IMG/VR virus record: IMGVR_UViG_3300017963_000288
Span: 1-63,067 of that record
Direction: 5' to 3' (one strand)
From: a virus
Length of the DNA: 63,067 nt
In this document: positions 263 through 51,011 of the stretch, piece after piece
Numbering within the stretch: the stretch's first letter is position 1
How the letters are laid out: every line of letters begins with the position of its first letter
Translations under genes and position numbers: made by a program
Notes under the pieces: model-generated
What the model saw: the letters and a program-made list of their open reading frames with translations, nothing else
The model's database searches: none
What the model was told of the DNA's origin: nothing

Positions 263-1165
263 CTACCCAATTTCGGACGCTCGCCATTGGCAAAGCCGTT
301 CCTTCGCCAGGACATCCGGACGCCAACCAGCCGCCGATAATCCCTCGTTCGCCGAAACGAAATACCGTTGGTCACATGGACGCCATGGGGCATACCCGTG
401 AATCGTCCCCCCTAGCGTCTCTACCGCGTCATGGAACGTCAGGGCATTGGCAATCCCGCCGCCCGTCACGTACTGCCCAGGCGTCAACCTGCCGTCCAGG
501 GCAAGAGAATAGGCCGCCAGGAGGTCGTCAACGTGCAAGAGGTCACGAACCTGATTTCCGTCCCCATAACACGTAATCGACCAGCCGTGGCGGATCGACC
601 GCCAGACGAACCCGATCCACCCCTGGTCAACAGTTCCTTGCTGTTCTTCGCCATAAATGCACGACTGGTGGAAGGCGTATCCACGGTCCGGCAGTAGATC
701 GGTGACATAGAGGGCTCCAGCCGCTTTGGCAATTCCATATGGCGTCCGTGGCGCAATCGGATGCCGATCCGTGATTGGTTCCTCATGTCCGATCAACTCG
801 CCGAATACCTTATTGGTGGACGCGATTAGGAATGGTCCCGAGCAATGATGCTTCGCCCATTCAATCAGCCGAACGGTGCCAACAGCGTTCGTACGGAAAT
901 CGGCCCACGGGGAGGTCATCGACCGGGTAACGGATACCTTGGCGGCGAGATGCAGGACGGCATCAACGGCAGGAAGATCAAAATCGTTGATATGATTGAT
1001 GTCCGCACGAATGAACTCGTGAGGCTCATCGTCGTTGATCGACGGCGGGGTCGCCGTAGGCCGTGACAGGTCATCTATTCCGATCAGTTGCCACCGCTCA
1101 CGATACCGTTCCCACGCAGCCCGCCCGATAAACCCCGCCGCCCCAGTAATCAATAGACGTTCCAT
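263..1165 (-). CDS. NAD-dependent sugar epimerase/dehydratase (extended SDR)
   Basis: A 300-residue extended short-chain dehydrogenase, the family that makes or interconverts nucleotide sugars in the cytoplasm. The Rossmann glycine motif is G8-x2-G11-x2-G14 (TGAAGFIG), an acidic Asp31-Asp32 follows strand 2, and the catalytic pair is Y143-x3-K147 after Ser116-Thr117. The STNKVFG stretch is typical of the CDP-paratose/tyvelose 2-epimerase branch, but the substrate is not certain. The start ATG overlaps the TGA of the upstream glycosyltransferase, so the two are translationally coupled. It probably supplies a sugar donor to the glycosyltransferases of this genome. Confidence 0.9.
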   Translation of the reverse strand: MERLLITGAAGFIGRAAWERYRERWQLIGIDDLSRPTATPPSINDDEPHEFIRADINHINDFDLPAVDAVLHLAAKVSVTRSMTSPWADFRTNAVGTVRLIEWAKHHCSGPFLIASTNKVFGELIGHEEPITDRHPIAPRTPYGIAKAAGALYVTDLLPDRGYAFHQSCIYGEEQQGTVDQGWIGFVWRSIRHGWSITCYGDGNQVRDLLHVDDLLAAYSLALDGRLTPGQYVTGGGIANALTFHDAVETLGGTIHGYAPWRPCDQRYFVSANEGLSAAGWRPDVLAKERLCQWRASEIG

Positions 1166-6027: not shown

Positions 6028-6483
6028 TCAGGGCCGTTCGTCGATCCGGAATGGTTTGAAAGGAGCAAGGCCGCGAAGCCTTGCGGCGAGCGTGGGACGG
6101 CCCATGACGCCCACTCCAGTATTGCTCGCCGATACTATGGCATGGCGCACGACATGCCTACCATGCGCCACCAGCCAACTGTGTTCATCGGCAATCGCAT
6201 TCTCGCGATCCCCATAACAACCCCATGTCGGGCCGTTGATGATGTTGATCCGCCAATCGCACCGCCAGCGGCGAGTCCATCCTGCAATATGGCTCTCGTC
6301 GGGCACGCATGCTCGCAATAGGCGAAATAGTACACGCAAGAGAAGGGACACCGGCTCGATGTGCGACAAGCGGATGCGAGCGCCGGAGCCGAGGGCGTTC
6401 TCAAGGGAGTCTAGTTCCCTCGACCCCAACCATTCGCACGACCCATCGCGTCGGATCGTAATTGCGATTTCAGTGGTAGACAC
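6028..6483 (-). CDS. hypothetical protein
   Basis: 151 residues, not recognised. It has a central hydrophobic stretch (VSLLLRVLFRLLRACV) that looks more like an amphipathic helix than a membrane span, and a Trp-rich part after it. It overlaps the DUF2997 gene by 14 bases and is followed by a terminator. Confidence 0.55.
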   Translation of the reverse strand: MSTTEIAITIRRDGSCEWLGSRELDSLENALGSGARIRLSHIEPVSLLLRVLFRLLRACVPDESHIAGWTRRWRCDWRINIINGPTWGCYGDRENAIADEHSWLVAHGRHVVRHAIVSASNTGVGVMGRPTLAARLRGLAPFKPFRIDERP

Positions 6484-6655
6484 GGTGCCCCTCCCCTCGC
6501 TCGTGATACTCGGGCGTCAGGCGATCCCCGTCCACAACACCAAGTGATTGCTCCAGCCCCTTCGTGAGGTCTTTGCATCCCTTTCCCTTGACTCCCTTTA
6601 CCTCGATTTCCGTCGCACCGTCTTGGGTGACTGTGATAATTACCTGCTGGCTCAT
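6470..6655 (-). CDS. DUF2997 family protein
   Basis: 61 residues matching the DUF2997 pattern: an N-terminal strand IITVTQDGATEIEVKGVKG, then G-x-x-C-x-D-L-T-K (GKGCKDLTK), a short helix ending ALG-like (SLGVV), and a final PEY. In cyanobacteria such genes sit beside DUF1257 (Ycf35) genes, as here. Function is unknown in the family; the sequence suggests a small alpha/beta partner protein. Confidence 0.8.
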   Translation of the reverse strand: MSQQVIITVTQDGATEIEVKGVKGKGCKDLTKGLEQSLGVVDGDRLTPEYHERGEGHRVYH

Positions 6656-6691
6656 ATCGTTTTTCTCCTGATTGTTTGTTGTTTGTGGTCG

Positions 6692-6886
6692 TCAATAATT
6701 ACTGGTTATATCTTCGAGCGTACCAGTAATTTCCTCAAGTTGCATTATGCAATCTTCAATCTGCTCGCCTTGCGCGGAGCAGCGGAAATTATCGGGGAGG
6801 TTTTCGAGGACTTCCAGTTCCTCCGCCAAGACCTCGTTCATGATGTCGAGCGCCTCACCGAGGCGCTTGCGGCGTGCTGCGTTCAT
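6692..6886 (-). CDS. small acidic helical protein
   Basis: 64 residues, almost all helix with many Glu and Leu: two helices joined by NLPDNFRCSAQGEQ. The pattern of a helix, N-[LM]-P-[DE]-x-[FL]-x-x-S-x-x-G-E, then a second helix, recurs in small proteins of many phages whose role is unknown. The ATG at 6886 has GGAG six bases upstream; the GTG two codons earlier is less likely. Confidence 0.65.
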   Translation of the reverse strand: MNAARRKRLGEALDIMNEVLAEELEVLENLPDNFRCSAQGEQIEDCIMQLEEITGTLEDITSNY

Positions 6887-6898
6887 TTTCACTCCCCC

Positions 6899-7297
6899 CT
6901 ATTTGTAGGCGACGAGTTGGAGTCGTCCATCGTCAAGCCGTTTCTCGCGGAAGCGAAACCCCTTGCGACTCAGCTTCTTCTTCGCGAGTGCCTTGACGTA
7001 GTTCTCGTTCAAGTGCTGCAACTGTGGGCCCAGCACCTTGTCGATTACGCGACCATAGCTGTCGTAGGCGAGCGTGTAGCCGTTCGTCTCTTTGTTATGG
7101 CTGTCCTTTGCCTGAACGACGCCGATTTCGTAGTTCGTTCCGGGTACTCTGATGACGTGCTCGCATGGCGATTTTCGACCGGACCAATACCGATGCTCTT
7201 TCAATCCGCGAACGAACTCACAGCCAAGCCCCCGAACGACCGACTCCAGCACGTTAAGGTCATTGACCTCCAGTTTGATTGATACTACATGACTCAC
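6899..7297 (-). CDS. DUF1257 (Ycf35-like) protein
   Basis: 132 residues from a GTG start fixed by AAAGGAG six bases upstream. The N-terminus SHVVSIKLEVNDLNVLESVV and the C-terminus QLQHLNENYVKALAKKKLSRKGF match the DUF1257/Ycf35 layout (MSHF-x-x-I-K-T start, late L-x-x-x-Y helix, basic end). The family is found in cyanobacteria and red-algal plastids with no firm function. Here it is next to DUF2997 and two genes from a Ycf46-like ATPase, repeating the bacterial context. Confidence 0.75.
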   Translation of the reverse strand: MSHVVSIKLEVNDLNVLESVVRGLGCEFVRGLKEHRYWSGRKSPCEHVIRVPGTNYEIGVVQAKDSHNKETNGYTLAYDSYGRVIDKVLGPQLQHLNENYVKALAKKKLSRKGFRFREKRLDDGRLQLVAYK

Positions 7298-7328
7298 GAT
7301 AGGCTCCTTTGTTCTAGTTTCAGTGTTA

Positions 7329-7334
7329 ATTATA
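7329..7334 (-). promoter_or_regulatory. possible promoter -10 before the DUF1257 gene
   Basis: A perfect TATAAT on the minus strand, preceded by GG and 32 bases before the GTG start. The best -35 match at 17 bp is poor (GGCACA), so this is a -10-driven guess. Confidence 0.35.
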
Positions 7335-7361
7335 CCATACCTTGCCCCGTTTGTGCCCGAT

Positions 7362-8261
7362 CTACTCATCATCCTCGAAACTGACGATCCTGCCGGGGCC
7401 ATCGGCCAAAAGCGTGTGCAATTGCTTGACGGCACCGTCCAGCGTTTCTTTGACCGAATCCCTGACGCCTCGGTTCGTTCGCAGGTCGTCCAGACTCTTG
7501 CCGTCCAGGGCCGAACGGATCGTATTGACGACGCTACCGAGGTCCTTGTCGTCCAGAATGTCGCGCTTATCAAATAAGGCTAACCACTCAAGGACTTTCC
7601 GCAATGTTCCCGGTTGCAGCGTTTGTCGGTGTCCGTTATCTTTCACGCCAAGAGCGTGCGCCAATTTCTCCGCGAGTCCGGCGATCCCTTCGCGAAGTGC
7701 AATCTTCGCCTCGTCGGCAAGGGCCGTCAACTCGACCTGTACTCTGTCGCGCTCTTTGGCGTAGAGGTATTCGCCGATCTGTGATGCGCCAGGCGTGGCC
7801 CATTGCGTGACTCGTTTCTCCACCCAGAACGCCCGCCGCAAGGCGCTCACGCTCGGGTAATCCGCCTCGTTGAACTGGTTCGCGAGTGCCGCCCTCGCAA
7901 TTTCCTTCTGGGCGGGATACACAACGAGAAACGCCTCGACGGCCTCTTGGTATTTTTCCTCATCCACCAATACGCGGTCGTATGCCTGTTCGAGCAAACT
8001 GATCGGAATCAAGTGCCGCCCCGTCTTGAATGGCCCATGCAATTCAAGGTCGCGCAGATATGAGCGACATGCGGAGGCGATCTTGCAGATGTACTTGTAC
8101 TCGGGCGACTCGACGATACGCTTGTTCAACCCGAGTTGCGACTTGTCCGCAGAAGTCTCGATTTCTGCCATGTCGCCGCGTCGATGGATTCCCGGCCGAT
8201 GGAAAACGACCTCCAGAATCACGGTGCCTTGTTCGAGTGCGTTGACTGTTGCGCTAGTCAT
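7362..8261 (-). CDS. unrecognised 299-residue protein with acidic C-terminal tail
   Basis: 299 residues, mainly helical. The N-terminal 35 residues form beta strands (TVILEVVFHRPGIHRRG); residues 40-220 are helical with heptad-like spacing. It lies between DUF1257 and the AAA+ ATPase, a position held in related phage loci by helical partner proteins of the ATPase (from memory, not checked). The last residues GRIVSFEDDE match the acidic tail found on three other proteins in this window. AAGGAG seven bases before the ATG gives the start. Confidence 0.7.
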   Translation of the reverse strand: MTSATVNALEQGTVILEVVFHRPGIHRRGDMAEIETSADKSQLGLNKRIVESPEYKYICKIASACRSYLRDLELHGPFKTGRHLIPISLLEQAYDRVLVDEEKYQEAVEAFLVVYPAQKEIARAALANQFNEADYPSVSALRRAFWVEKRVTQWATPGASQIGEYLYAKERDRVQVELTALADEAKIALREGIAGLAEKLAHALGVKDNGHRQTLQPGTLRKVLEWLALFDKRDILDDKDLGSVVNTIRSALDGKSLDDLRTNRGVRDSVKETLDGAVKQLHTLLADGPGRIVSFEDDE

Positions 8262-8314
8262 GATCTAACTCCTTGCAATTGGAAATGTGACGGATTCTCA
8301 GTCGATCCGCTCTA

Positions 8315-8340
8315 GGTAGCCGTGCTCACCCACGGCTACC
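8315..8340 (-). other. stable hairpin in the spacer after the AAA+ gene
   Basis: Perfect 10-bp stem (ggtagccgtg / cacggctacc) with a 6-base loop, 17 bases after the stop of the ATPase gene on the minus strand. No T-run follows, so it is more likely an RNA-processing or 3'-end protection hairpin than a full terminator. Confidence 0.6.
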
Positions 8341-8356
8341 CTGGCCGGATCGGCAA

Positions 8357-9895
8357 TCACTCCGGATCGGCAACGCGACGCCCTCGCCCCCGTTTCGGTT
8401 TCTCGTAGACGCCGGGTTTGCTTGCCGATAGGTATTTGCCAGCCGCTTCTTCACGCAGAGCGTTTATGGCTGTCGCCTCAATACGCCCCTGTGGAATCAC
8501 AAGCGGCGCGACCTCATCTAACGGCTTGTCGAACCGCCACGCCTTATCCACGCACCGCTGAATATTCCGCCCGACCCAACCATCGTCCATGCCATTCCTG
8601 ACGGTCCCTTTGACATCCTCGTATTTCTTGAGCCAGACGTCCCATATTGCGGATCGCTCTTTTGCGTCCGGCAGATCGAAAAAGAATGTGTCGGTGAACC
8701 GTGAACGCAACGCCGTATCCAGTCCACGGATACTGTTGCTCGTTGCGATCCATAGAGCGTTATCACTCCCAACGGCACTCACCACTTTCAACGCCGTGCG
8801 AAGATACCCGCCAGACCGTCCGACCAACTCGTGTTTCATCGCACCCATGTTGATCCGTATGACGAGCCGCCCGAACTCTGCGCCGACAGCTTTCGCAAAC
8901 GCCGACTTCCCACTCCCGGCGACGCCCAACAACATCAGACCATAAACGCCGTGGTCCTCCATGTAAGTTAGTGTCTCACCGAGTTGTTCGGCGTTGACTC
9001 CGCTTGTGTCACCCGTGTGACCAAGACCGGACTTTTCGATTTCATCCAACCACACAACAACCTCTGGTGGCTTGCGTCCGGTCATCAGTTGTCTTGCGTA
9101 CTCCTTTACGCTGTCGAGGCCACCCAGACTCTCGAACGTCTCGCCACCACGATAGACGGACAAGCCGCGAGTCTGTTCGATCAACGCCGTTTTCGTTTGC
9201 CACAAGTGAGCGATGTCAATGCCGTCCTTGCGGAGTGCCATCGCCGTGGCCTGTTCGGCCGAAAACGCCGGGAGCCCTCGAACCGCCTCAACGCTACGCA
9301 ACAGCGTATCCCTATCCATGATCGTGCGTTTAGACGTCCCCGTGCCCTTGCATTTTTCGCACTCCAGCCCCAGCGCAAGGCCAGTCCCGCCACACCCTCC
9401 ACACAGACTCGCGGACTGATCGAGTTTTGCGACGATTTCCGTCAGGTGTTCTGTGTCTGGTAACGGCTCGTCGAGAACAACGATGTCGTCCTTGAGCAGC
9501 GCAGGCAGATCAATCGTAGATTGAACGATGATAAGCATCCGGCGATCCAATTTCAGTTGATCGCGCAGATTCCAGACGGCCTGTTGTACGTGTGGGTTCC
9601 GCTCGAAAAACTCGCACCCGTTCAACATACATGCGATTCCACGCTCCGGCAATTCTCGCGAGCACCACATCAGAAATTCCACCGGCTCGGTGCAATCGTG
9701 CAAATCATCCGTGATGATTTCCTCGCCGCCCTCGTTGACGCCCACGACGCCGCGTACACAATCCCACATGACGATGGGGCCATTCTTCAATCCCTTCGCC
9801 AATTGTATCACGCATGCGCCGGGGTCCGGCGTTGTGATGGCGACAATTGGAACGGCCGCTTGGCGAGCAAGACTCAACTCTTTGACGAAATTCAT
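8357..9895 (-). CDS. Ycf46-like AAA+ ATPase with permuted Walker motifs
   Basis: 512 residues. Residues 1-155 match the degenerate N-terminal domain of Ycf46-like proteins (a VMWD strand near 44; FFERNPHVQQAVWNLRD near 96; a closing EPLP near 144). A DnaJ-like zinc knuckle (CGGCGGTG at 165, CEKCKGTG at 179) links it to the ATPase domain. That domain starts at GGLDSVKEY (258). Walker B (VVVWLDEIEKS, 279-289) comes BEFORE Walker A (GVAGSGKS, 324-331); sensor 1 (ATSN, 384-387) and the Arg finger region (RSRF, 397-400) follow in normal order. No hhhhDE occurs between Walker A and sensor 1. This is a natural circular permutation of strand 3 and its helix. AAGGAAG precedes the start. Likely a remodelling ATPase working with the DUF1257 and DUF2997 proteins. 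Confidence 0.9.
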   Translation of the reverse strand: MNFVKELSLARQAAVPIVAITTPDPGACVIQLAKGLKNGPIVMWDCVRGVVGVNEGGEEIITDDLHDCTEPVEFLMWCSRELPERGIACMLNGCEFFERNPHVQQAVWNLRDQLKLDRRMLIIVQSTIDLPALLKDDIVVLDEPLPDTEHLTEIVAKLDQSASLCGGCGGTGLALGLECEKCKGTGTSKRTIMDRDTLLRSVEAVRGLPAFSAEQATAMALRKDGIDIAHLWQTKTALIEQTRGLSVYRGGETFESLGGLDSVKEYARQLMTGRKPPEVVVWLDEIEKSGLGHTGDTSGVNAEQLGETLTYMEDHGVYGLMLLGVAGSGKSAFAKAVGAEFGRLVIRINMGAMKHELVGRSGGYLRTALKVVSAVGSDNALWIATSNSIRGLDTALRSRFTDTFFFDLPDAKERSAIWDVWLKKYEDVKGTVRNGMDDGWVGRNIQRCVDKAWRFDKPLDEVAPLVIPQGRIEATAINALREEAAGKYLSASKPGVYEKPKRGRGRRVADPE

Positions 9896-17151: not shown

Positions 17152-18036
17152 ATGAAAGCAATCATTACCGGCGGCGCAGGATTCATCGGCCACCATTTAG
17201 TGACCTCTTTACTCGCCAGGGGCGATCAAGTCCTGGTTATTGATGACCTATCAACCGGGAGAGCCGATCCGACGATATACGGCCGCCTACTCGTTCACGA
17301 CATTACGATGCCGATCCGCCATGACCTCGAACAGTTCGCCGATGCGAGCGTTATGTTCCATCTTGCCGCCAAAGCGCGTGTACAGCCCAGCATAGCCGAT
17401 CCGATCTACTTCAATCAGACCAATGTCGTCGGCACCCTGCGAATGCTATGGTTGGCAAAAGAACTCGGCATTCGCCGTTTCGTATTCGCATCGAGTTCAT
17501 CCGTCTACGGCAATTGCAATACAATGCCATTGTCTGCCGAACAGACCAAACCTAACCCAATCTCCCCATACGGTCTACAAAAACTTATCGGCGAACAATA
17601 CTGCCGGTTATTCTCATCGCTATACGGCGTCGATACCGTCTGTTTGCGATTTTTCAACGTGTATGGCGATGGGATGTCTCACGGTCAATATGCGATGGTC
17701 ATCCAAAAGTTTCTTGACCAGCGCGAATTGGGAGAATTGTTGACGATCTATGGTGACGGAAGTCATCGGCGAGATTTCACTCATGTTAGTGACATCGTAC
17801 GCGCGGTCATCCTTGCCGGGGATCGCAAACGACCGTTCGAGGGCAAACCACTCAACGTCGGTCGCGGATCGAATGTCTCGGTTGCCGAGTTTGCCGCAAT
17901 GGTTGGCGGTCCAACTAGGTATCTTCCGGCAGTGCCCGAACCAGCCGAGACGCTTGCAGGGATCGCGACAACGAAGACGGAATTGAGTTGGGAGCCGGTG
18001 GTTGATCTTCAAACGTGGCTTGAGTCCACGGGATGA
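17152..18036 (+). CDS. NAD-dependent nucleotide-sugar epimerase
   Basis: 294 residues, extended SDR of the UDP-glucose/UDP-GlcNAc 4-epimerase type. Cofactor motif G7-x2-G10-x2-G13 (GGAGFIG), FASSSSVYG at 112-120, catalytic Y140-x3-K144, and RFFNVYGDG. It is shorter than full-length GalE (about 330), lacking part of the C-terminal domain. It is the only plus-strand gene in the leftward arm, with its own promoter and two operator-like repeats, so it behaves as a separately regulated cargo gene. Its 3' end runs 122 bp into the opposing zinc-ribbon gene. Confidence 0.9.
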   Translation: MKAIITGGAGFIGHHLVTSLLARGDQVLVIDDLSTGRADPTIYGRLLVHDITMPIRHDLEQFADASVMFHLAAKARVQPSIADPIYFNQTNVVGTLRMLWLAKELGIRRFVFASSSSVYGNCNTMPLSAEQTKPNPISPYGLQKLIGEQYCRLFSSLYGVDTVCLRFFNVYGDGMSHGQYAMVIQKFLDQRELGELLTIYGDGSHRRDFTHVSDIVRAVILAGDRKRPFEGKPLNVGRGSNVSVAEFAAMVGGPTRYLPAVPEPAETLAGIATTKTELSWEPVVDLQTWLESTG

Positions 18037-48008: not shown

Positions 48009-49012
48009 TGCCGGTTATTCGCGTCGTTTTCGACGTACCGAAGTGGACTTGGCACCACCGAGCGATGGACCTCGCCACCTTCGCGCCCCCAGAGTACACG
48101 GTCCATACGCACAAGGAATCAACGTTCTTGAATCACTTGAAGGACCCGGGTTTCGTATCTGGTGTCGATGCTGTGTTTTTCATGGGTTGGGCCAGTTGTC
48201 CGATCCAACGCATCAGAAAAGCGGGCTGCAAGCGGCTCGTATCTTTAGTGACTTCGGCCGGACCCGCTTACCGCGCCGTGAACGATGGAGATTGGAACAC
48301 CTGGATCGTCACGGGCAGTCGCAATTACGCAAACGCCCACACAAAACTCCCACGATACGATGCTATAATTGTCGTCAATCGCTTCCTTGCCGATGCCTGC
48401 CGAAATCACACAACGCGACCAATTTATTTGATCCCAAGTGGCGTGAATACTGATGCGTATTCGCCATCGCCAAGCGGTCGCGAACAGCACAATGGCTTTC
48501 GCGTCGGCTGGTGCGCCAACATCAACGGCACACACACCGTCAAAGGATACAAGGAAATACTCGAACCACTAATTGCGGAAACGCCGGAATGGAAGTGGTG
48601 CGTCAATACGCGGAACCATCGTCGCGCATGGACGCGAGAACAAATGGTAGACTGGTATCGCACATTGGACGCCTTTGTGTGTACGTCGATTTGTGAAGGG
48701 ACGCCCTCGCCGGTTTTTGAAGCTGCATCCTGTGGTGTGCCGATAGTCTCAACAGACGTTGGGTGCGTGAGGGATTGGCAATTGCCCCATGACCTACACT
48801 TGATTGCGCCCGCCTATCAGAACGCAAAACAAGCGGGCGTCTCCCGCGAACACCTACGAGCGTCCCTGTCCGCCATTGCAAACATGCCACCCGCCGAGCG
48901 AACGCTGTTGGGATTCGAGTTGCGTTCGAGCGTCTGTAAACTGTTTGACTACCGCGTTATATCCCCGCGCACAATGGAGGCGTTATGTCAGACAAACGGA
49001 AGCGAGCGTTGA
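48008..49012 (+). CDS. GT4-like glycosyltransferase, tandem copy 1 of 3
   Basis: 334 residues. Donor motif CEGTPSPVFEAASCGVPIV (E-x7-E), preceded by VGWCANINGTHTVKGYKEIL and KWCVNTRNHRRAW. Starts in TAATG. The three tandem enzymes share WYR-x-x-D-x-F, EG-x-P, EAA-x-CG and STD-[VI]-G. Confidence 0.88.
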   Translation: MPVIRVVFDVPKWTWHHRAMDLATFAPPEYTVHTHKESTFLNHLKDPGFVSGVDAVFFMGWASCPIQRIRKAGCKRLVSLVTSAGPAYRAVNDGDWNTWIVTGSRNYANAHTKLPRYDAIIVVNRFLADACRNHTTRPIYLIPSGVNTDAYSPSPSGREQHNGFRVGWCANINGTHTVKGYKEILEPLIAETPEWKWCVNTRNHRRAWTREQMVDWYRTLDAFVCTSICEGTPSPVFEAASCGVPIVSTDVGCVRDWQLPHDLHLIAPAYQNAKQAGVSREHLRASLSAIANMPPAERTLLGFELRSSVCKLFDYRVISPRTMEALCQTNGSER

Positions 49013-49995
49013 TCCTGTATGATGTTCCCGGTTGGGCACAGCATCGTTTCGCGTGTGGTATTCGCTCACATGCGCCGGACTGGTGCGAAGTTGACGTCGG
49101 CATCGCTGGTGAATATCTCAACGGTGGCATCGACGCGGACCGTATCGCACAATATGACGGTGTCCTTGCTCCATTATTCGCAATGTATCGGCGTTCGGGA
49201 GTGCGGCGACTCGTCGGTTTGTTAGCCAGCCACGCGTTGATGTTCTCGCGATATGACAAAGACGATTGGCGAACACTCGGCGTCACAAAGGACCGCCATC
49301 GCCGGCACGCCGCGAATGTACTACAAAACGTCGACGGGGCAATCGCCAGAAATCGCGAGTTGCGATTCTCATTGTCGGAATATCACGACCATATCGTAAC
49401 GATCCCTGTCGGTGTTGACCTTTCGGTTTTCAATAACACCGGCCGTCATTATAGCAAATCGGGGGAGCCTTTGCGTATTGGGTGGTGCGGTAATAAGGCA
49501 TGCAAGTTAGATCGAAACTTCAAGGGGTACGAGCGAATCCTCCAGCCGCTAATGCGCAGGACGGGAGGGCGTTACGAATGGCATGTGAACACCAACTCCC
49601 ATAAAGAGGCGATCCCACCAGAGGGAATGGCGAAATGGTATCGGGCGTGTGATGTGTTCATCACGACGGCATCGGCAGAGGGGACGCCAAACCCGGCCTA
49701 CGAGGCGGCCGCTTGTGGCTGTTGCGTTATCTCAACGGACGTCGGTGGCATTACAGACTGGGTTGCCATGCGATCACTCGCACAGATCGTCCCGACGTAC
49801 CGAAATAAAGAGGAAGCGGCCGTTACGATCCGTGCGTTTGAACAATTACTGCATGGCTTTGACAAGAAGCGTGAACTTGTCGAACAAGCGGGGGGTATAC
49901 TTGCTCATGATGTTGGTCGGCGATATTCTTATCGCGTTCTCGCCCCCGGTATACTCCAGTTTGTCACACTGCACGAAGGCAAGCAGCGACCGTGA
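48985..49995 (+). CDS. GT4-like glycosyltransferase, tandem copy 2 of 3
   Basis: 336 residues. WCGNKACKLDRNFKGYERIL, WHVNTNSHKEAIPPEGMAKW, then AEGTPNPAYEAAACGC. GGAGG directly before GCGTT and the ATG. N-terminus VPGWAQHRFACGIRSHAPDW matches copy 3, so copies 2 and 3 are the closer pair. Confidence 0.88.
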   Translation: MSDKRKRALILYDVPGWAQHRFACGIRSHAPDWCEVDVGIAGEYLNGGIDADRIAQYDGVLAPLFAMYRRSGVRRLVGLLASHALMFSRYDKDDWRTLGVTKDRHRRHAANVLQNVDGAIARNRELRFSLSEYHDHIVTIPVGVDLSVFNNTGRHYSKSGEPLRIGWCGNKACKLDRNFKGYERILQPLMRRTGGRYEWHVNTNSHKEAIPPEGMAKWYRACDVFITTASAEGTPNPAYEAAACGCCVISTDVGGITDWVAMRSLAQIVPTYRNKEEAAVTIRAFEQLLHGFDKKRELVEQAGGILAHDVGRRYSYRVLAPGILQFVTLHEGKQRP

Positions 49996-51011
49996 AAGTC
50001 CTGTTGATTTACGACCTCGACGGATGGGCTTTCCACCATATCGCATGTGGGCTACAAAGCTATGCGCCGGATTGGGTTGACGTTACCATCGCGTCGCACG
50101 AAGAATACTATGCCGACATCAGGGAACACAAACCGCGGGTGACAGCCTACGACGCTATACTTGCGATTTCACTCTGTACGGCACGCCCACGACTCCCTAA
50201 ACCGATCTGGATTGGGTTCGCCTGCCATTGCGGATTCAGTTATGACACGGAAACGCTCTACGATTTCCGGACCCTTGGCGTCAATCCTCGTCGATGCCGC
50301 AAAGCGGCATGGGCTTATGTGACGAATGAAGTGGACTGGATTTTCGCATGCAATTCACAAGTCGCAAACGCCTTTCGTGCATATGCTCCGCAGCGGGTAT
50401 CACTCCTGCCGCAGGGCATAGACACTGATTTGTTTACGCCCCGCCGCTGGCGCGAGCCTAAAACGGTACTTACAGCCGGGTGGTGTGGACAACCGGCACC
50501 GTGCAAGGGTCGCTCTCAAGTTTTGCGACCCCTGATAACCGCCCTCGGCCCCTCGTGGCGATGGCGGATCAATTCGAGAACGCATGGCACGGCTCTTAGT
50601 CCAGCGGAAATGGTAAAATGGTATCGCAATCTGGACTTGTTCGTCTGTACTAGCACGAGTGAAGGTGGCCCACTAACTCCGTTCGAGGCTGCGTCGTGTG
50701 GCGTCCCGGTCTTGTCAACGGACATCGGTAGCGTTCGTGATTGGAATCTCATCCACGATGTCGGCCTCATTCTGCCGGAATACAAGAACCACCGTGACGC
50801 AAAACGTGTCGTCACACTGGCGGTCGGCATCATGAACCATTGGCGACCAACCAGAGAATTATCTGAAACATTCCGGACGGACATCGTAGAATCGCGGTCA
50901 TGGAAAACCTTAGCTGCGCGATGGTTCGACGAAATAAAGAACGTCGTGGAACGTAAGCCGACGCTTCCTTGTGGGTTTGCCAAGGAATTGCGACGATTGA
51001 AAGTCAAATAA
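49992..51011 (+). CDS. GT4-like glycosyltransferase, tandem copy 3 of 3
   Basis: 339 residues from a GTG start (GTGA overlap). WCGQPAPCKGRSQVLRPL, EMVKWYRNLDLFV, SEGGPLTPFEAASCGVPVL. The start LIYDLDGWAFHHIACGLQSY aligns with copy 2. Confidence 0.88.
   Translation: MKVLLIYDLDGWAFHHIACGLQSYAPDWVDVTIASHEEYYADIREHKPRVTAYDAILAISLCTARPRLPKPIWIGFACHCGFSYDTETLYDFRTLGVNPRRCRKAAWAYVTNEVDWIFACNSQVANAFRAYAPQRVSLLPQGIDTDLFTPRRWREPKTVLTAGWCGQPAPCKGRSQVLRPLITALGPSWRWRINSRTHGTALSPAEMVKWYRNLDLFVCTSTSEGGPLTPFEAASCGVPVLSTDIGSVRDWNLIHDVGLILPEYKNHRDAKRVVTLAVGIMNHWRPTRELSETFRTDIVESRSWKTLAARWFDEIKNVVERKPTLPCGFAKELRRLKVK

Follow-up and report, generated by a model that had tools for sequence, protein, structure and literature searches.

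Few protein machines have been studied as thoroughly as the AAA motors, and to our knowledge the known ones share one common order of core elements. Reordered motifs are found in another class of P-loop NTPases, the circularly permuted GTPases of the YjeQ/YlqF type. The Ycf46 AAA ATPase occurs in cyanobacteria and in red algal plastids, where it has long been retained, and a few phage proteins also bear its name, for instance in Pseudomonas phage SM1. Cyanobacteria also possess a cluster of DUF2997, ycf35 (DUF1257) and the ferredoxin gene fed7 (PMC4284462), and in red algal plastids ycf34, ycf35, ycf46 and the heme oxygenase gene pbsA were lost in parallel with habitat, which was tied to iron (PMC5940233). 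Viral AAA motors with dedicated partner genes are known from the MoxR-vWA pairs of phages and of the archaeal Acidianus two-tailed virus (ATV) (PMC7824862). Searches of the open-access literature on DUF3150, on the DUF1257/DUF2997 pair and on permuted AAA proteins yielded no description of the arrangement reported here.

The window analyzed here is a viral DNA of 63,067 nucleotides (IMGVR_UViG_3300017963_000288), taken at its full length. Adjacent DUF2997 and DUF1257 genes are common to its module and the cyanobacterial cluster, but the module adds an adjoining ATPase gene and a DUF3150-type gene, and no ferredoxin gene lies beside it. The ATPase shares the tandem architecture and the N domain with Ycf46, while its Walker B block lies ahead of Walker A, in contrast to the canonical relatives, which align to profile phrog_8638 over the whole length. 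The fold and the catalytic residues of its second AAA domain resemble those of p97/Cdc48, Vps4 and spastin; however, the block order of the core differs and the first domain is degenerate. It is of the classical, p97/Vps4-like type and thus of a different AAA family than the MoxR proteins. Unlike the YjeQ/YlqF-type GTPases, it exchanges two internal blocks and keeps both ends in place.

The gene set in the window

The initial annotation had proposed four consecutive genes, and all four ORFs were present on the minus strand, each preceded by a plausible Shine-Dalgarno sequence. They encode a Ycf46-type ATPase of 512 amino acids (8357-9895), a helical protein of 299 amino acids (7362-8261), a DUF1257/Ycf35 relative of 132 amino acids with a GTG start (6899-7297) and a DUF2997 protein of 61 amino acids (6470-6655). 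The genes are adjacent but not strictly consecutive, since an ORF of 66 amino acids on the same strand (6692-6892; phrog_4068, function unknown) separates the DUF1257 gene from the DUF2997 gene. This ORF had no homologues among the other loci. The conserved unit extends downstream beyond the four genes into a fifth, p6 (6028-6483, minus strand, 151 amino acids), which had been overlooked, as had the permuted AAA core. The GTG start of p6 overlaps the DUF2997 stop codon. The protein contains an SHVEP motif and has homologues in 77 loci, among them gp99 of phage Tunturi_3, and searches of Pfam and PHROG gave no family match.

The DUF2997 protein was identified directly by Pfam (PF11211, E 4.2e-16, 59 bits against a cut-off of 24.1). 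The window gene includes a column of the family alignment in which 115 of 153 rows carry Cys and 35 carry His. Direct Pfam assignment failed for the DUF1257 gene (zero matches) and for the helical protein (no DUF3150 match), and held-out iterated profiles were used instead. A DUF1257 profile grown from the Pfam-positive Tunturi_3 gp102 alone, with the window gene excluded from training, recovered this gene with E-values of 2.2e-17 to 2e-26, while none of 9,689 reversed decoys scored under 1e-4. Seventeen of its 27 aligned family members matched Pfam DUF1257. The structural model of the protein (pLDDT 89.6) gave no convincing fold match with Foldseek or VIA-align (best Z 5.9), nor was a convincing match found among PDB sequences. 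The helical protein proved to be a relative of DUF3150: its family member L030:7693-8577 exceeded the curated DUF3150 cut-off, and a single-sequence HMM of L030 matched the window protein in one pass (E 9.5e-18). A helical-family gene of Ca. Manganitrophus also passed the cut-off, and the family was present in 152 loci.

Exchange of the Walker blocks in the ATPase

The ATPase contains a Pfam AAA match that exceeds the cut-off (PF00004, 42 bits), and its AlphaFold model (pLDDT 90.9, pTM 0.85) best matched phage proteins named Ycf46, as the initial annotation had anticipated; among viral structure models all of the top three matches carried this name. The model aligned with p97 D1+D2 over 401 residues (Z 18.1, 5.8 Å) and with Vps4 or p97 D2 alone over about 200 residues (Z about 16, 2.8-3.4 Å). 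Computation thus showed a tandem AAA protein with a degenerate N-terminal AAA-like domain and a second AAA domain, which is the architecture of the Ycf46 family. In NCBIfam the only match was a weak one to IteA, over the shared AAA part. A Cys-rich, DnaJ-like insert was dropped as the defining feature of the ATPase because among permuted proteins it is restricted to the window and locus L004; it also sets these two members apart from Ycf46.

In the second domain the order of the core is reversed. The N domain (residues 1-277) is followed by the Walker B block (beta3-alpha3, residues 278-316, VVVWLDEIEK; 8951-9064, minus strand), then by the Walker A block (beta1-alpha1-beta2-alpha2, residues 317-377, GVAGSGKS; 8768-8941, minus strand; Pfam AAA positions 1-53) and by the sensor 1, Arg-finger and lid region (residues 378-512). 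Against phrog_8638 the protein matched in four reordered pieces, namely the N part, 365-404, 307-364 and 407-557, and gave no full-length collinear match to this canonical profile. The identical four-piece order was obtained with 12 of 12 permuted ATPases, none of which had the standard AAA order (beta1 Walker A-beta2-beta3 Walker B-beta4), whereas seven of seven canonical relatives gave essentially one full-length match. The ATPase is therefore a permuted and not a standard AAA protein.

An artefact of assembly, frameshift or alignment as the source of this order is virtually inconceivable and is already refuted by these matches and by the distribution of the exchange. It was found in 128 loci of phages and bacterial MAGs, from isolates as well as metagenomes, with a single constant boundary and a spacing of 44 residues in 86 of them, and it occurs in the isolated phage Tunturi_3. 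The classical residues of Walker A, Walker B, sensor 1 (Asn) and the Arg finger were present and conserved, D284, E285, G324, G327, K330, N387 and R399 being invariant across 34 divergent permuted sequences. Judging from sequence, strand order and model confidence, the nucleotide site would probably close in the permuted core.

The permuted ATPases formed a single clade (support 100), and the one origin was recovered by trees built both with and without the swapped columns. The exchange may have arisen once, in an ancestor already carrying the module, by tandem duplication of the A-B unit to A-B-A-B and loss of the outer A and the outer B. We infer rather than observe this route, because the duplicated A-B-A-B intermediate was absent among the 128 permuted proteins. 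A functional clade with a broken order offers a test of the connections needed for folding and for the coupling of ATP hydrolysis to motion.

Linkage in phages, plasmids and bacteria

Linkage was counted in the 90 permuted-ATPase loci with enough flanking sequence, taking neighbors within about 6 kb. DUF1257, DUF2997 and DUF3150-type genes were each present in 86 of the 90 loci, and all three together in 83. A sample of Planctomycetota collected by DUF2997 first gave DUF1257 as an adjoining gene in 32 of 35 cases and a Ycf46-type ATPase in 31 of 35. NCBI-annotated plasmids of several phyla carry the same linkage: the order AAA-DUF1257-DUF2997-DUF3150 is annotated on a Ca. Manganitrophus plasmid, and DUF1257, DUF2997 and AAA genes lie within 3.4 to 3.8 kb on plasmids of Geminocystis and Pseudanabaena. 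Scans of viral contigs and of genome contigs with single sequences detected no relatives. The families are indeed known from cyanobacteria and plastids but are not limited to them; as phages, plasmids, probable mobile elements and the chromosomes of many phyla carry them too, the initial description as a phage version of a cyanobacterial module was too narrow.

It is very improbable that this proximity merely reflects a clustering habit of small mobile genes whose four products do not work together. Gene order and position do differ among loci, the helical-protein gene and DUF1257 being found either upstream or downstream, and 29 of 32 canonical viral ATPases occurred without either of the DUF genes. 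The cyanophage DUF2997 loci checked for an ATPase had only DUF1257 as a partner, with no annotated ATPase nearby and ferredoxin-annotated genes a few kb away (the "ferredoxin" of P-SSM2 matched no Pfam family). Nevertheless, linkage in 83 of 90 viral and bacterial loci despite the reshuffled order speaks for selection acting on the genes as a set, and the DUF2997-first sampling gave the linkage independently. The earlier proposal that the proteins form one machine is thus well supported in so far as the genes travel together; the linkage shows a common process, not a physical complex. It turns DUF1257/Ycf35, DUF2997 and DUF3150, all of unknown function, and Ycf46 into one testable system.

Possible function of the module

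On balance it is somewhat likely that the genes encode one ATP-driven protein-remodelling machine of the unfoldase or chaperone type with dedicated partners. The ATPase would assemble into a ring of six subunits whose pore loops (xLVGxS), powered by ATP hydrolysis, would pull a target. DUF2997, DUF1257 and the DUF3150-type protein could serve it as dedicated adaptors or cofactors, this role being a guess for DUF1257 because its predicted fold lacks a clear match. We regard it as reasonably likely that a catalytically intact permuted AAA family, derived from one ancient internal permutation, runs an undescribed multi-gene remodelling system common to phages, plasmids and bacteria, and that plastid Ycf46 and Ycf35 belong to the same general machinery. 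Such a widespread and undescribed gene set offers a handle on plastid and bacterial genes of long-unknown function, and genetics is feasible as isolate phages and plasmids carry the system.

The ATPase and its helical partner could instead help to fold or assemble phage structures such as the tail, for which the MoxR-vWA pair of ATV is a precedent (PMC7824862). The window, which belongs to a tailed phage, encodes a tape-measure protein as well as head-tail adaptors, and on a Treponema plasmid a Ycf46-type ATPase is flanked by a 4Fe-4S protein and a phage baseplate assembly protein V. A role in virion assembly is nonetheless quite unlikely: no virion genes were seen around the copies of the module that lie on plasmids or on contigs of Planctomycetota and Bryobacterales, and DUF1257 and DUF2997 act outside phages too, in plastids and cyanobacteria. 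No vWA partner was among the Pfam and PHROG matches beside the ATPase or in the neighbor clusters, although a divergent vWA could escape these searches.

A conflict module, serving to shield its phage or element from the host's immunity or from competing elements or to disable complexes of the host, would fit the carriers, which are phages, plasmids and probable integrated elements, as well as the Geminocystis copy adjoining RloB, zeta toxin and DUF4007 genes and the Pseudanabaena copy adjoining Hsp70/GrpE. This is also unlikely, if a little less so, as PADLOC gave no specific defence-system match but only generic AAA matches (IetA, TRIP13), and the chromosomal and plastid copies of DUF1257 and Ycf46 suggest housekeeping roles. 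The membrane-remodelling or counter-defence function initially considered found no direct support.

For the remodelling machine favored here, an iron-sulfur or radical/redox protein complex may, more tentatively, be the target. Such a target is suggested by the radical-SAM (Fer4_12) or ferredoxin genes that recur beside DUF1257/DUF2997, together with the Cys/His column of DUF2997. The cyanobacterial cluster with fed7 and the iron-related gene losses of red algal plastids point the same way. Neither gene adjoins the module in the window, and only three of 84 viral permuted loci have one beside it, so the iron-sulfur link may be confined to the cellular versions. In the bacterial permuted loci a radical-SAM gene was present in 27 of 45 (Fer4_12, E 2e-28), and this neighbor recurred on plasmids of Treponema, Paenarthrobacter and Bacillus.

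Gene layout and family assignment in the window

The window, a 63,067-base virus record that also encodes a tape-measure protein and head-tail adaptors, carries six minus-strand ORFs, each preceded by a plausible ribosome-binding site. In transcription order these are the ATPase (9895-8357), a helical protein of 299 aa (8261-7362), the 132-aa DUF1257 protein (7297-6899), a 66-aa ORF (6892-6692; phrog_4068), DUF2997 (6655-6470) and the 151-aa protein p6 with an SHVEP motif (6483-6028). The module genes had been described as consecutive in the initial annotation; they share strand and cluster, but the 66-aa ORF, for which the other module loci yielded no homologue, sits between DUF1257 and DUF2997.

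The DUF2997 gene was assigned directly by Pfam (59 bits against a cut-off of 24), as had been proposed. Although the direct Pfam scan gave no match for the proposed DUF1257 gene, this assignment also held: the gene was recovered at E values of 2.2e-17 to 2e-26 by profiles grown from the Pfam-positive gp102 of the Tunturiibacter phage Tunturi_3, with the window gene excluded from all training. None of 9,689 reversed ORFs passed 1e-4. By the same logic, the helical protein is placed in the DUF3150 family. No match to p6 was obtained in Pfam and PHROG scans; this uncharacterised protein is the fifth module member, with homologues in 77 loci. Elsewhere in the window (263-1165, 1165-2571, 17152-18036 and 48985-51011) lie two nucleotide-sugar epimerase-type and three glycosyltransferase-type genes, possibly a phage glycosylation set.

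Exchanged Walker blocks in the ATPase

In the window ATPase, Walker B (VVVWLDEIEK, aa 279-288) lies 45 residues ahead of Walker A (GVAGSGKS, aa 324). The protein matched PHROG profile phrog_8638 in four pieces, in the profile order 13-288, 365-404, 307-364 and 407-557. This order, with near-constant boundaries, was found in all 12 permuted proteins tested, while canonical relatives gave an essentially single collinear match (7/7). A motif scan classed 128 loci as permuted, 50 as canonical and 18 as unassigned; the plasmid proteins and that of Mycobacterium phage Catdawg had the canonical order. The spacing from Walker B to Walker A was 44 in 86 of the 128 permuted loci, and that from Walker A to Walker B was 55 in 49 of the 50 canonical ones. 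GxxGAAKS replaced GxxGxGKS as Walker A in 56/128 permuted ATPases, the Lys and Ser/Thr being preset by the search motif.

An AlphaFold model built with 34 aligned sequences (mean pLDDT 90.9, pTM 0.85) showed the elements of the second domain in the order beta3 (279-283), alpha3 (300-315), beta1 (318-324), alpha1, beta2, alpha2 (358-376), beta4 (380-386) and beta5 (402-406). Over its full length the model aligned with both p97 AAA domains at Z 18.1 (401 residues, rmsd 5.8); for the second domain, the alignments to Vps4 and to p97 D2 covered about 200 residues at Z about 16 and rmsd 2.8-3.4. The best three viral structure matches were all named Ycf46. We infer that the active site closes in three dimensions despite the exchange.

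In a tree for which the Walker A and Walker B blocks were aligned separately, one branch (support 100) separated all 42 sampled permuted proteins, and the grouping was also recovered with the swapped columns omitted. Nearest to the permuted clade, in a midpoint-rooted drawing that does not fix the true root, was a Planctomycetota type with the same five genes; the module is therefore probably older than the permutation. For DUF3150, the DUF1257/DUF2997 pair and permuted AAA proteins, a search of 5.4 million open-access papers turned up no account of either the permutation or the module. The window protein is thus read as a permuted Ycf46-type AAA ATPase within a conserved multi-gene system.

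Linkage of the module genes

ATPase relatives were gathered from annotated phages (one, Tunturi_3), IMG/VR and GTDB genomes, and 9,689 ORFs flanking about 200 ATPases were searched with iterated profiles. DUF1257 was found in 150 loci, DUF2997 in 149, DUF3150-type genes in 152 and p6 in 77. Of the permuted loci, 90 had at least 3 kb of upstream and 4.5 kb of downstream sequence; each of the first three families was present in 86 of these and all three in 83. To avoid the circularity of ATPase-first sampling, a second sampling was started from DUF2997 in 199 Planctomycetota genomes. DUF1257 adjoined DUF2997 in 32 of the 35 loci fetched, a Ycf46-type ATPase did so in 31, and 11 carried the complete five-gene set.

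Independent NCBI annotation gave AAA-DUF1257-DUF2997-DUF3150 on a Ca. Manganitrophus plasmid. On plasmids of Geminocystis and Pseudanabaena the same annotation put DUF1257, DUF2997 and AAA, with intervening genes, inside a span of 3.4 to 3.8 kb, and on Planktothrix and Bacillus plasmids it showed DUF2997 and DUF1257 with AAA. The expected co-occurrence of the three families elsewhere was borne out by the permuted loci, the DUF2997-first sample and the plasmids alike. On the Pseudanabaena plasmid (L243 583-6527) GrpE and Hsp70 genes immediately precede DUF1257, and DUF2997 and the ATPase follow downstream.

DUF2997 and DUF1257 also lie side by side in cyanophages P-SSM2 (L237 5989-6565) and P-SSM7 (L238 5977-6526), labelled only as hypothetical. 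Both DUF1257 genes and the P-SSM2 DUF2997 scored far over the Pfam cut-offs; the P-SSM7 DUF2997 was identified by tblastn. Genes labelled as ferredoxin occur a few kb from the pair. Bryobacterales genomes carry multiple permuted modules each (loci L057, L064, L068 and others), with helicase, SSB-like and methyltransferase-like genes nearby, which is suggestive of integrated mobile elements.

Function of the module

The conserved catalytic residues, the p97/Vps4-like fold and the gene linkage argue for a putative ATP-driven protein remodeller with dedicated partners. Virion assembly, for which there is a precedent (PMC7824862), is a possible function, and so is a role in conflict. The DUF1257 model was predicted with confidence (pLDDT 89.6) and gave no clear match to known folds in the structure comparison.

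Around the putative remodeller an iron-sulfur or redox theme recurs, weakly on the phages themselves: of the permuted loci, 27 of the 45 bacterial ones carry a radical-SAM (Fer4_12) gene and 3 of the 84 viral ones do. On plasmids of Treponema, Paenarthrobacter and Bacillus such a gene again lies near the ATPase. The DUF2997 family has a Cys/His column. In cyanobacteria the ferredoxin gene fed7 adjoins ycf35 and DUF2997 (PMC4284462), and in red algal plastids ycf34, ycf35, ycf46 and heme oxygenase were lost in parallel, tracking habitat (PMC5940233). The Treponema succinifaciens plasmid (L242 4096-8320) carries, in sequence, a 4Fe-4S radical-SAM gene, the Ycf46-type ATPase and a phage baseplate assembly protein V gene.
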